Shown here piece after piece: positions 37,754-50,044 of a stretch of DNA of 64,000 nt. The position numbers and the translations under genes were made by a program. Each line of letters opens with the position of its first letter. The first letter of the stretch is position 1. This stretch comes from Georgenia ruanii (GTDB taxonomy: Bacteria > Actinomycetota > Actinomycetes > Actinomycetales > Actinomycetaceae). Location of the stretch: NCBI RefSeq assembly GCF_009193175.1, contig NZ_VUKE01000020.1, positions 1 through 64,000 of the forward strand. The letters are read 5' to 3'. Under the pieces are notes generated by a model. That model had not been told where the DNA came from. It ran no database searches and worked only from the letters and a program-made list of their open reading frames with translations.

Positions 37754-38620
37754 TCAGGGTCGCCGGGCGGGCCGGGTCGCGCTGGCCGCGCACAGCGCGT
37801 GCCGGGCGGCCCGTTCGACCGACGCCAGCGCCGACGCCCGCTGGGAGATCTGCGCCGCCGTCACGGCACCGCCGTCGTCGCTCAGGGCCAGGTCGATGAT
37901 GGCGAGCAGCCGCGCCGCGCGCTCGAGGACGTCGAGCTGGCGCGGGTCCAGGCCCGGGGGCAGCAGGCGGTCCGGCAGGGTGGCGAGCGAGAGGTCGAGC
38001 AGGTGCTCGGCCAGGTCCGGGCGGTCGCGGGCGACGTCGAGGTCCTCGAGCACCTCGACGGCCTCGGTCAGCGCCAGCTGGATCTCCCGGCGCGCCTGGG
38101 AGACGGAGTCCACCCCGGCGAGCAGCAGGCTGGGCGCGGGCAGGAGGTCGGTGATGTCCTGCTCAACCGTCCAGGTCACCAGCTCGCCGCGCTCGTAGAT
38201 GCTGCCGTAGGTGCTGCGCACCGGGACGACGACGCTGCACACCTCCGCGGCGCCGTCCGCCCGGCGCAGCAGAAGCCCCTCGCCGGCGTCGAGCAGGTCC
38301 GCCGACCGGGCGGCCGGCGCGCCCATGGGGTCCCCGGCCCGCGGCAGCAGCGCGGCGACCTCGATCACCGGGGTCAGGCCGGTGAAGAGCTCGTGCAGGG
38401 CGGCCAGCCAGGCGGACGCCGTCACGTCGGGACCACGCCGGGCCACGGGGGACGGGACCGTCTCGGCCGCCGCCCGCGGGCGGACGTGGACCTCGTGGTG
38501 CTCGCCGGACCGGGCGACGGCGCGCGCGGCCCGGAAGGCGGAGTCGCGGTCGGTGACGGTCGGGAGCCACAGCGCGAGCGTGACCGAGGCGGGGAGCTCG
38601 AGGATCGCCGGGCCGGACAT
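37754..38620 (-). CDS. uncharacterised actinobacterial protein (288 aa)
   Basis: 288 residues from ATG 38620. I do not recognise a family. Residues 1-190 look like a mixed alpha/beta domain (ELPASVTLALWLPTVTDRDSAFRA, DLLDAGEGLLLRRADGAAEVCSVVVPV), and residues 190-288 are helical with YGSIYERGELVTWTVEQDITDLLPAPSLLLAGVDS-like spacing before them. There is one cysteine in the core and no membrane segment. It is convergent with glgA and divergent from the ABC ATPase. Normal codon use, so a long-standing resident gene. Confidence 0.75.
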   Translation of the reverse strand: MSGPAILELPASVTLALWLPTVTDRDSAFRAARAVARSGEHHEVHVRPRAAAETVPSPVARRGPDVTASAWLAALHELFTGLTPVIEVAALLPRAGDPMGAPAARSADLLDAGEGLLLRRADGAAEVCSVVVPVRSTYGSIYERGELVTWTVEQDITDLLPAPSLLLAGVDSVSQARREIQLALTEAVEVLEDLDVARDRPDLAEHLLDLSLATLPDRLLPPGLDPRQLDVLERAARLLAIIDLALSDDGGAVTAAQISQRASALASVERAARHALCAASATRPARRP

Positions 38621-46750: not shown

Positions 46751-46800
46751 GACCTGCGTGACACCCGGCCGCCGGTCGTCGACCGCGCGGCGGCCCCGGC

Positions 46801-46838
46801 CTGCCTGACGGGGGCCGGGCTGCCTGACGGGGGCCGGG
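46801..46838. repeat. 19-bp direct repeat before trmH-family gene
   Basis: CTGCCTGACGGGGGCCGGG occurs twice in tandem (46801-46819 and 46820-46838). It lies just upstream of a GAGAAT hexamer (46850-46855) that stands 6 bases before GTG 46862, a probable leaderless promoter for the methyltransferase gene. Confidence 0.75.
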
Positions 46839-46861: not shown

Positions 46862-47728
46862 GTGCTGATCCGCATCACCGACCCCGCCGACGACCGCCTC
46901 GGCGACTACACCCACCTCACCGACGTCGCCCTGCGCTCCAAGCACGAGCCCGCCAAGGGCCTGTACATCGCCGAGAGCTCCAACGTCATCCGCCGTGCCC
47001 TGGAGGCCGGCCACCGGCCCCGCTCCTTCCTCATGGCCGAGAAGTGGCTCGAGTCCATGGCGCCGGTCATCGCCGCGGCGCCGGGCTGCGAGGGCGCGCC
47101 CGACGGCGGGGAGCAGGTGCCGGTCTTCGTCGCCGAGGAGCCGGTGCTGCGCGCCATCACCGGCTTCCACCTGCACCGCGGGGCGCTCGCGGCGATGCAC
47201 CGCCCCCCGCTGGCCGGCGTGCGGGAGCTGCTCGAGGGGGCCCGCGCGGGCGCCGGCGCGCGCCGGGTCGCGATCCTCGAGGACATCGTCGACCACACCA
47301 ACGTCGGGGCCATGTTCCGCAGCGCCGCCGGGCTGGGCGTCGACGCGGTGCTCGTCACGCCGCGCTGCGCGGACCCGCTGTACCGCCGCTCGGTGCGGGT
47401 GAGCATGGGCACCGTCTTCCAGGTGCCCTGGACCCGGCTGACCACCTGGCCCGGTGCCATCGACCGCCTCCACGACGCCGGCTTCACCGTCGCCGCGCTC
47501 GCCCTGAGCGACGACGCGGTCAGCCTCGACGACTTCGCCGCCTCCCCGGCCGTCGCCGACGCCGGCGCGAAGGTCGCCCTGGTGCTCGGCACCGAGGGCG
47601 ACGGCCTGGCCCGCGCCACGGTCGAGGCCGCCGACGTCGTCGTGCGCATCCCCATGGCGGGCGGGGTGGACTCCCTCAACGTGGCCGCCGCCTCCGCCGT
47701 CGCCTTCTGGGCGACTCGCCGCCGCTAG
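46862..47728 (+). CDS. SpoU/TrmH-family RNA 2'-O-methyltransferase, complete copy
   Basis: 288 residues, GTG start. The N-terminal RNA substrate-binding domain (YTHLTDVALRSKHEPAKGLYIAES) is followed by the knotted SPOUT domain: motif 1 DHTNVGAMFRSAAGLGVDAV (near 142), motif 2 ALVLGTEGDGL (near 240) and motif 3 IPMAGGVDSLNVAAASAV (near 262). It methylates ribose in rRNA or tRNA; the exact target is unknown. From 47303 on, the 3' half is about 90% identical to a second, truncated copy at 49616, with a low-GC cassette between. Its 3' half may therefore have arrived with that cassette while the gene stayed intact. Confidence 0.9.
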   Translation: MLIRITDPADDRLGDYTHLTDVALRSKHEPAKGLYIAESSNVIRRALEAGHRPRSFLMAEKWLESMAPVIAAAPGCEGAPDGGEQVPVFVAEEPVLRAITGFHLHRGALAAMHRPPLAGVRELLEGARAGAGARRVAILEDIVDHTNVGAMFRSAAGLGVDAVLVTPRCADPLYRRSVRVSMGTVFQVPWTRLTTWPGAIDRLHDAGFTVAALALSDDAVSLDDFAASPAVADAGAKVALVLGTEGDGLARATVEAADVVVRIPMAGGVDSLNVAAASAVAFWATRRR

Positions 47729-47829
47729 TCAGGCCATGCTCTTAGTAGTCTGCTGCGTATACGCCCGAATGTTCTATATGTCGGGGTAACGCCCGGTATC
47801 GACCTGCGCAAACCGCCCTAGGATTCGAT

Positions 47830-48786
47830 TCAGACAGCGTACGGTTGTGCATCCTTGATTGAGGTAGTGATTTCGATAAACGTAATTGAGATCCGGAGAT
47901 AATCTTCTCCTGTGCCGGCTCGTATTGTCCACGCGGCGCCGATGTCAGAGTCGACGCCATGGTCCGCCGCATTTCGGACATTTGAAAGATACTTGCCTAT
48001 TGCAGCAACCTTCTTTGGTAATGCTCTGGCCCTATCGAATGCATCGACCTTGGCGCCTAGGCCTGTCGCCCCTGCTACGCTTACCGACATGTCCGAAGCG
48101 AGTTGAGAGAGATACGATTCGATGGCGTTTCCCGCCGATACCACTGCTCCACGAGAGTCGCTCTGGCTGACCTTCAGATACGCTTCGGCGAGAGGTTGAA
48201 GTACTGAAGAATGGTCCACGTAGTTGCGTGCGCGCTCGGACATCCAGTCGCGGACGCGTAGCTCCGCTTCGGCGAGTTCCGCAACCGCTCCGGCGAGGAG
48301 GGTTGTGAAGTCTTCCTCTAGTTCAAAACGGACCTCATGATTGCCTCCTGCCGTTGCTCGTAGACTCTGGCAATAGGTTCCTAGGCTGAGGAGGGTCTGC
48401 TTGATTGTCTCCCTGTGAGCCGCTAGTCCAAGCAGTGCGCGCGTTTGCTGGGCAGCGGTTCCAGCTCCTTCGCCTGACAGGTGGAGGAGTTCCCGAAACA
48501 CGCGAAACGGTTCGTATGCCTCAACAGCTATTCGAAGTACAGCGGCCCTCTGTGCTAACACTGGGGTATTGAGGAGGCGAGCGAGGGGACTAGCGGCTTT
48601 GTAGCAGTTACCGTCGCACCGAATTAGTCCTAAATCTTCGGCGAGTTCAAGCGCCGCCACAGCATTGACATTCGGCAAATCGAGGAAGTCTGCGACCATG
48701 TCCGCCGTCGCCGCATCTCGGCCGGCGACCACGCCCTGCACGGCACCAACGACGTTGTCAGCCGTGGTATCTGCGAGCCGCGTCAT
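47830..48786 (-). CDS. cassette protein with C-terminal HEPN/Abi-like domain
   Basis: 318 residues. N-terminal ~80 residues resemble a winged helix (TADMVADFLDLPNVNAVAAL, LAEDLGLIRCDGNCYKAAS). The middle is helical. The C-terminal part reads AGNAIESYLSQLA near 218-230 and YLSNVRNAADHGV with Arg271-x4-His276, the R-x4-6-H signature of HEPN ribonucleases and of the Abi_C-type RN..HG ending. This suggests an RNase-type effector, but no family assignment was verified. Its start overlaps the stop of the upstream cassette gene by 4 bases. Codon use is much less GC-biased than in neighbours, indicating transfer. Confidence 0.75.
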   Translation of the reverse strand: MTRLADTTADNVVGAVQGVVAGRDAATADMVADFLDLPNVNAVAALELAEDLGLIRCDGNCYKAASPLARLLNTPVLAQRAAVLRIAVEAYEPFRVFRELLHLSGEGAGTAAQQTRALLGLAAHRETIKQTLLSLGTYCQSLRATAGGNHEVRFELEEDFTTLLAGAVAELAEAELRVRDWMSERARNYVDHSSVLQPLAEAYLKVSQSDSRGAVVSAGNAIESYLSQLASDMSVSVAGATGLGAKVDAFDRARALPKKVAAIGKYLSNVRNAADHGVDSDIGAAWTIRAGTGEDYLRISITFIEITTSIKDAQPYAV

Positions 48787-49544
48787 CGTGGGTCGTCGCC
48801 GTCGAGCCCTTCGAGCTCATCGGCCGCGCGCTCGATCGAGTCGAGCATCGTTCGAATTTGAACGCCAAGGTCGGGAAGTTGGCTCGGCTCTACACTGATG
48901 TTCACAATCAACTTCAGAGCAACGGAAGTTCCCCCGGGCGCCTGTTCGATTACCCGCTGGACGGTCGGGCCCTGAATGGGCAGAGGCTCGGGCGACGGCA
49001 TGGGTGCGTCCCCCGGAGGGCGGACGGGTTCATCGACAGGGGTGGCACTTTCACTGATGTTTAGAGCGACCACCTGACCGTCGCGTTCGGCCACGAGCCC
49101 CGCTTGTTTCATCATCTCGATGACGGCGGCGGCGCCGGCCAGTGCCCGCGTGCTCTTGTCAGCCCCAGCTGTATACACGATTTGCGTCGCCAGTGTTGAC
49201 GCGTCCATGCCGCCACGTACCCGGATCGCGGCGATGATGCGTTGGATGATGGTCTGGCCGGAGAGGACTTCGCGCCATGCCGCTGATATGTCGTTCGCTT
49301 CTCTGAAATCCAGTGCGCGAGCCAGCTTCTGGCCGACTGCCGTTACACCTTTATCCCGGCCGCCTTCTAGTACGCCGACCGATACAAGGAACCCCGTGTT
49401 ACGGCTGATCTCTCCCGCAGGGGAGCCGGCGATTCCTGCGACGGTCTCCAGGTTGGTCTTCCCGCCCACATGGTTGTACGCCTGAACAATCCGGGAGAGC
49501 GTCTCGTACGACGCGCCAGGCAACTTAAACGTATCGTCCACCAT
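48783..49544 (-). CDS. cassette winged-helix-like protein, partner of HEPN-like gene
   Basis: 253 residues from ATG 49544 (a TTG at 49604 would add 20 residues, but these look like junction translation). Residues 8-80 resemble a winged helix (ETLSRIVQAYNHVGGKTNLETVA... GFLVSVGVLEGGRDKGVTAVG), and a second similar unit spans 90-160. A Pro-rich linker (165-205) leads to a small C-terminal domain (SVALKLIVNISVEPSQLPDL, helix to 247). I do not recognise the family. Translational coupling with the downstream gene implies a joint function, for example a sensor or antitoxin for the R-x4-H protein. Low GC, same origin. Confidence 0.72.
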   Translation of the reverse strand: MVDDTFKLPGASYETLSRIVQAYNHVGGKTNLETVAGIAGSPAGEISRNTGFLVSVGVLEGGRDKGVTAVGQKLARALDFREANDISAAWREVLSGQTIIQRIIAAIRVRGGMDASTLATQIVYTAGADKSTRALAGAAAVIEMMKQAGLVAERDGQVVALNISESATPVDEPVRPPGDAPMPSPEPLPIQGPTVQRVIEQAPGGTSVALKLIVNISVEPSQLPDLGVQIRTMLDSIERAADELEGLDGDDPR

Positions 49545-49609
49545 GAGGGCATGGTTGCGGTCGCGGGCTCTCAGTGTGCTGCGACGCGCCGAGAGGCCGA
49601 CCAAATTTA

Positions 49610-50044
49610 AACAATGTCGGGGCCATGTTCCGCAGCGCCGCCGGGCTCGGGGTCGACGCGGTGCTGGTCACGCCGCGCTGCGCGGACCCGCTGTACCGCC
49701 GCTCGGTGCGGGTGAGCATGGGCACCGTCTTCCAGGTGCCCTGGACCCGGCTGACCATCTGGCCCGGCGCCATCGACCGGCTCCACGACGCCGGCTACAT
49801 CGTCGCCGCGCTCGCCCTGAGCGAGGACTCGGTCAGCCTCGACGACTTCGCCGCCTCCCCGGCCGTTACCGCGCCCGACTCGAAGATCGCCCTGGTCCTG
49901 GGCACCGAGGGGGAAGGCCTCGCCCGCGCGACCGTCGACGCGGCGGACGTGGTCGTGCGCATCCCGATGGCCGGCGGGGTGTACTCCCTGAACCTCGCGG
50001 CCGCCTCGGCGGTGGCGTTCTGGGCGACGCGGGCTAGGGCCTGA
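49610..50044 (+). pseudogene. 5'-truncated second copy of trmH-family methyltransferase
   Basis: An open frame of ~145 codons starting within motif 1 (NNVGAMFRSAAGLGVDAV) and running to a normal stop. By eye there are about 40 differences in ~415 positions from the 3' half of the complete gene: very few in the first 170 bases, more towards the end. The N-terminal substrate-binding half and a start codon are missing. Motif 3 is altered (GGVYSLNLAAAS instead of GGVDSLNVAAAS). The frame is intact, so decay is recent. It is probably the original chromosomal 3' end left after cassette insertion, as its downstream flank continues as ordinary high-GC DNA. Confidence 0.85.

Follow-up and report, generated by a model that had tools for sequence, protein, structure and literature searches.

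Elements that keep attachment (att) sites at both ends and encode no integrase have already been named: in the passages of PMC5704250 that deal with them, these are the cis-mobilizable elements (CIMEs), defined as decayed integrative and conjugative elements (ICEs) or integrative and mobilizable elements (IMEs) that are moved in cis after accretion. Some defence islands lack an obvious route of mobility; for Escherichia coli, part of PMC10121019 discusses islands in which an integrase is the sole mobility gene. A section of PMC10654092 places attB-29, the predicted integration site of a prophage of Mycobacterium abscessus, in a methyltransferase gene of the SpoU-like type. Here, a stretch of 64,000 nt of the Georgenia ruanii genome (contig NZ_VUKE01000020.1, positions 1 to 64,000; hereafter the window) was analysed, in which a trmH/SpoU-family methyltransferase gene is followed by a short two-gene insert and by a second copy of the 3' half of the gene. 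The segment 47303-49616 is probably a small att-flanked, non-autonomous, CIME-like integrative element, for which the crossover would have been made by an integrase acting in trans.

A sequence-only reading of the same DNA knew of no description of a minimal, integrase-less carrier of a two-gene module at this site; in view of the CIMEs, this needs some correction. Like a CIME, the element has att-like sites at both ends and lacks integration and transfer genes, as judged by its open reading frames (ORFs), and no ICE or IME genes were seen among the ORFs between 47728 and 49612. Unlike a CIME, it shows no ICE remnant and consists of 1.9 kb plus one trmH half, and small elements like it are met again at several genes. 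With its need for an outside integrase, the element works like a CIME or a satellite. Phage satellites of the phage-inducible chromosomal island type carry an integrase together with packaging or interference genes; with two genes only, the window element does not belong to them. It also differs from the M. abscessus case, in which the predicted site is the sixth codon, another position in the gene, and an integrase is present, according to the same section of PMC10654092.

The trmH gene (46862-47728, +) is complete and matches PF00588 (2e-35). Two minus-strand ORFs (48783-49604 and 47830-48786), overlapping by 4 nt, lie between it and the truncated second copy, and the GC content of 47729-49611 is 0.593 versus 0.738 and 0.755 in the flanks of ~5 kb. 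A block of 32 nt is identical at 47303-47334 and 49616-49647 and forms part of a direct repeat of 418 nt with 90% identity (47299-47715 and 49612-50028; E 9e-158), a two-copy geometry that is beyond chance. The left, attL-like junction (47299-47334, +) consists of CAACGTC and the remainder of the block; the right, attR-like junction (49612-49647, +) has CAATGTC and the remainder of the block. Neither ORF inspection nor a family search gave an integrase gene in the insert, no transposase was found among the ORFs, and ARAGORN detected no tRNA in the whole window. The complete SpoU gene, the low-GC two-gene insert, the truncated 3' half, the identical 32-base block and the missing integrase had all been described in the sequence-only reading and were confirmed. 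Besides these two copies, the G. ruanii genome contains three weaker matches to trmH (30-40% identity) on other contigs, which were taken as paralogues.

In the closest relative compared, G002, trmH is single and continuous, and is followed by DNA matching the window from 50072 onward. This is the empty site that had been proposed as a check, and it supports a gene-restoring mode of integration. As compared with G002, the 5' half of the window gene through the Asn-147 codon (46862-47302, +) has 19 synonymous and 4 amino-acid differences in 146 codons, the 3' half that completes the gene (47303-47728, +) has 29 and 7 in 139 codons, and the displaced 3' half (49616-50044, +) has 15 and 13 in 139 codons. 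In a tree, the displaced copy clusters with G002 (ultrafast bootstrap 85); in a weaker, single-site count, 22 sites join the displaced copy to G002, 17 join the completing copy to G002, and 12 join both copies. Because of the difference counts and the tree grouping, the displaced half is assigned as native, together with the 5' half, and the completing half as foreign. From these counts, the displaced half looks released from constraint and is apparently decaying, whereas the foreign half looks constrained. Hence, the proposal that the gene is restored by the element's own end stands as far as a foreign half completes the gene, but the truncated copy is the native and not the foreign one. Downstream of trmH, G002 also has ~1.5 kb (L025 3439-4927) without a counterpart in the window.

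The position of the junction recurs in other genomes. A census of 159 genomes of the order, G. ruanii included, in which the trmH 3' half had to be matched at least twice with E<=1e-15, a threshold that misses shorter remnants such as that of G007 (see below), gave 10 genomes. Two of these (G046 and G236) were rejected, as their second match is either paralogous or a full-length copy from a different contig. The remaining eight genomes, that of the window among them, have a displaced trmH 3' end, with nine copies in all. When translated, six of the nine (window, G163, G265, G155, G167 and G200), which derive from three distinct islands, begin with the Asn codon (residue 147) of the NVGA motif, and the remaining three (two in G226 and one in G253) keep 2-3 codons more. 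In G163, G265, G155, G167 and G200, where the same Asn codon is the breakpoint, the intact gene is composed of a host half ending in VDHTNV, an in-frame linker and a new SpoU domain that starts from RIAVLEGLVDHT or similar; this restart (R-I-A or similar) is the start seen in the Streptomyces phages Kamino and Sitrop. Among the marks of a gene-restoring element, both an empty site in a relative and a fixed breakpoint in independent insertions are found, with G007, which falls outside the census, as the exception to the latter; an integrase encoded by the element is lacking. Sequence comparison thus shows that the element lies within trmH, where the NxGA motif of SpoU has its Asn-Val codons (core AACGTSGG), that the foreign 3' half at the left end of the element keeps trmH complete, and that the native 3' half has been displaced to the right end.

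The site is not special to a minimal two-gene carrier, for restriction islands of 8-10 kb use the same codon. Their cargo is type I restriction: family matches identify it in G155 and G200, and DNA identity with these two extends the assignment to G163, G265 and G167. Genomes G163, G265 and G155 belong to three families, and their island aligns over 7.3-7.7 of 8.1 kb at 93.7-96.0% identity with identical ends, including 4,489 bp at 99.0% between G265 and G155. The host trmH halves of these three genomes align only partially (53-151 nt at 75-83%, plus 86-89% in two shorter pieces of 37-42 nt); for one pair of 5' halves no alignment was obtained. A second island is common to G167 and G200 (7.8 kb, 88.4%) and matches the first over 351-446 bp at ~76%. 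By eye, the cargo in G226 includes arsenic, metal and transporter-like genes; that of G253 was assigned no class. The window element is apparently mobile and one among several cargoes at a trmH hotspot codon.

Matches to PF00589 and PF07508 were absent from the trmH islands, as well as from elements in G161, G354 and G055 that lie at genes that we take to be an aldo/keto reductase gene (AKR) and ychF and at a tRNA-Gly gene. Outside these places, the large serine recombinase family PF07508 has matches in 8 of the 15 genomes searched for it, and PF00589 in all 13. Two trmH islands encode a PF00239 protein without a recognisable catalytic serine motif of the usual kind. Resolvase-like proteins with PF00239, a helix-turn-helix and an N-terminal catalytic serine motif that is likewise unrecognisable are encoded where trmH islands with type I restriction end (L079 11593-12288, -; L080 3114-3695, +). 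Further candidate defence genes in trmH islands (L080 12041-12784 and L081 8173-9099) code for a protein with an FRG domain (PDC-S15) and for one resembling type IV restriction. In G226 (C1 2167020-2218588; L076-L078), three trmH 3' ends stand in series, ~29 and ~22 kb apart, and there are apparently two tandem islands at one gene.

A candidate source of the integrase was found among phages. In Kamino and Sitrop (PP750867 and NC_054676), a trmH 3' half with 63% identity to residues 126-286 of the window protein lies directly beside a gene for a serine integrase. Inverted repeats surround AACGTGGGCGCG (AACGTGG/GCGC) in Kamino and its equivalent in Sitrop, with 17 and 18 of 30 positions matching (p=0.0025 each against shuffles, the place having been picked by eye before the shuffle test), as would be expected of a serine-integrase attP at the trmH core. 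These phages resemble the window element in carrying a trmH 3' half, and have their inverted repeat at the same NVGA-type core. They differ in encoding a large serine integrase, in having a linker after the core, and in trmH homology that begins ~15-21 codons before the Asn codon, and their attachment sites are putative. The passages concerned in the paper on Kamino report an integrase, predict a temperate lifestyle and name no trmH site. Kamino, Sitrop and one unannotated contig were inspected from the 24 phage records matched by the trmH half, and the relatives of the whole trmH protein in plasmids were all below 60% identity. When the sequences preceding the core were compared with host sequence, seven distinct arms pooled gave 38 matches in 84 (p=0.0022). 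The integrase acting in trans would be a site-specific one brought by a visiting element, and the large serine integrases of the Kamino/Sitrop kind are the most plausible candidates; in the window itself, the crossover is placed by position, which leaves such an enzyme a candidate agent. A weak tblastn match of the Kamino integrase at window positions 37946-38398 (E 2e-4), with no evident recombinase ORF, was taken as chance.

The first of the two cargo genes in window coordinates (47830-48786, -) encodes a HEPN-like protein of 318 aa, near the C-terminus of which the motif RNAADH (R-x4-H) aligns with the R and H columns of other pairs; HEPN RNases are marked by R-x4-6-H in a helical domain. 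The protein matches DUF4145 (PF13643) at E 0.0024, below the cut-off, and DUF4145 is counted among the HEPN families in the portion of PMC3710099 concerned. The partner (48783-49541, -) would have 252 aa from the ATG at 49541, a more likely start than the TTG at 49604 to which the ORF is open, and 70 nt (49542-49611) separate this ATG from the displaced trmH half, forming the right end of the element. Family searches gave no significant match for the partner; its position and size are those of M34A-type proteins elsewhere and its C-terminal pattern is alike by eye, making it a possible counterpart of winged-helix partners as far as such a pattern can tell. In PDC-M34, a PADLOC candidate defence system (M34A and M34B), a short gene of winged-helix type likewise precedes a coupled HEPN gene; an M34A-like gene is present in trmH of G007, and M34-type loci occur at AKR, ychF and tRNA genes with flanking repeats. 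The window proteins differ from this system in matching no PADLOC model, at any value up to E 1. A literature search on PDC-M34 or on HEPN with DUF5343 found no papers, and a PDB sequence search with both window proteins returned nothing relevant (best E 0.014 and 0.08).

The R-x4-H motif, together with the presence of restriction systems at this site in other genomes, upholds as a possibility the suggestion that the pair might be a defence module. Considering the architecture as well, the pair probably has an anti-phage role. It may be of the abortive-infection or toxin-antitoxin type, in which a DNA-binding partner would hold a HEPN RNase in check or set it off. Completion of trmH would render the element harmless, and it would persist by protecting the host from phages and perhaps by occupying a site that phages use.

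In G007, which belongs to the same genus, two minus-strand genes, ordered as in the window, lie between an intact trmH and a frameshifted trmH 3' remnant. The HEPN gene is of the Ymh type (PF09509, 1.2e-26), and the second gene matches PDC-M34A at 1.4e-14 and, below the cut-off, DUF5343 at 0.00036. No recognisable relationship was found between these proteins and the window pair.

The same two genes at unrelated loci, which the sequence-only reading had named as a finding that would speak against it, were not seen, the window pair having no match in 198 other genomes. Pairs of a similar, PDC-M34A-like make-up occur at other genes. The PDC-M34A model matches 6 of 347 genomes of the order, an alignment of eight M34A-like proteins, that of the window among them, matches 9 of 394 genomes of the class, G. 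ruanii included, and a patterned scan of genome_contigs gave six loci, three of which had already been found by the model. A direct repeat (at least 25 nt, 80% identity, spacing 1-5 kb) spans 7 of 14 M34A-like loci, window and G007 counted, versus 1 of 26 control places (Fisher p=0.0012), the controls being 14 places in the window and, from relatives, 12 trmH loci; some of the controls have less sequence around them than the test loci. Two repeat-less loci (L050 and L067) were counted among the 14 without a confirmed HEPN partner; L070, at a contig end, and L068, L059 and L060, with partial or weak matches, were left out, L070 having a spanning 28-nt repeat of a sequence that recurs there. A separate tally over 398 kb gave 13 such repeats, seven of them at these loci. 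The spacing is 1.5-2.3 kb in five of the seven flanked loci, and the sites are trmH and AKR, with two loci each, the 3' ends of ychF and of a tRNA-Gly gene, and a tRNA-His gene at its end.

AKR is broken at an identical codon (EIFTKV|Y) in Isoptericola sp. AK164 and Cellulomonas humilata, where the inserted M34-type pairs occupy L049 5657-7573 and L051 5631-7429, respectively. By their geometry, the AKR elements would supply a new 5' half. The GC content of the element-borne versus the displaced piece is 0.612 versus 0.656 in C. humilata and 0.656 versus 0.641 in Isoptericola. Among phage records, the AKR 5' piece has seven matches, of which that to a faecal contig without annotation reaches 79% and the others 37-42%; it matches nothing in viral contigs. 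M34A-type proteins gave no match in plasmids (queries from G007 and L041), in phages (L041) or in viral contigs (alignment A2). Loci L040 and L041 match the PADLOC models of both M34A and M34B; L047, tested for A alone, and L051, tested for B alone, match the respective model.

Several results weigh against a mobile element carried by a Kamino-type integrase and bearing a HEPN pair. The bootstrap of 85 joining the displaced copy to G002 is modest. A Kamino-like integrase (E<=1e-50) is encoded in 13 of 296 genomes of the class, in none of them with trmH within the 1.5-kb flanks, and PF07508 has no match in the G. ruanii genome. No palindrome arises when the ends of the window element or of five islands are joined (p 0.44-0.90), the right arm of the window matches the host sequence before the core at chance level (3/12, p=0.69), and the window element has no linker. 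The remnant in G007 begins near residue 242 rather than 147, and for this reason either a different point was used there or the remnant has been shortened. No spanning repeat is present at seven M34A-like loci (L050, L063-L067 and L069). As to the cargo, the HEPN call combines a sub-threshold match with a motif, neither protein has relatives in the 198 other genomes (nor the HEPN-like protein in genome_contigs, plasmids or phages), hhalign gave no significant match of either to the proteins of other pairs, and the AlphaFold2 models are poor (confidence score pLDDT 54.9 for the partner and 47.7 for the HEPN-like protein).

The chief alternative, which we regard as unlikely though deserving of serious weight, is that a once complete element has lost its integrase and that the cassette now spreads passively, by homologous recombination through trmH and its flanks after transformation, transduction or conjugation. 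No integrase was found in the islands and no helper beside trmH, the PF00239 proteins of two islands have an unrecognisable catalytic serine motif, and CIMEs are, in the passages of PMC5704250 cited above, elements whose genes for integration and transfer were lost while attL and attR remained; these points speak for it. However, an 8.1-kb island at 94-96% identity across three families, ending at the same core next to poorly aligning trmH halves, is hard to obtain by homologous exchange, and random decay does not predict the recurrent small size of the flanked loci. A quite improbable course is one-sided homology with illegitimate joining, in which donor DNA with trmH and the genes after it would have recombined within the 5' half and then been joined at a random point of the resident gene, whose old 3' half would be a leftover. 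A native 5' half adjoining a foreign 3' half and the different breakpoint in G007 would fit it, but it predicts scatter where six displaced copies, from three distinct islands, all begin at a single codon, and does not account for the five islands with in-frame linkers and a repeated SpoU start or for the common breakpoint of the two AKR insertions. Tandem duplication of trmH, with the two genes entering between the copies later, or a transposon that duplicated a long target, would give the 418-nt direct repeat; it is nevertheless the least credible course, as the closest relative has a single gene, the copies are not each other's closest relatives either in the tree or in the single-site count (12 sites versus 22 and 17), and the ORFs include no transposase.

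Integration in trans into trmH is the reading that we prefer. A broader and tentative idea, which we would put below an even chance, is that minimal defence modules, such as HEPN pairs and type I restriction systems, act as 'att squatters': with a half-gene as attP and no recombinase of their own, they would be moved by the integrases of the phages that they oppose, and would occupy the site of those phages. As these integrase-less islands have exact ends, a fixed codon and sharing between families, and named integrase phages carry the same core, the question of what moves them becomes testable.

Two minor observations concern other positions. At L062 (6949-10901), an M34A-like gene, a HEPN-like gene, a third gene, presumably DUF3883-like, and an rve transposase gene are spanned by a 48-nt repeat of the tRNA-Gly 3' end. 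In the window, a 19-nt imperfect tandem repeat (46796-46833) lies immediately 5' of trmH.

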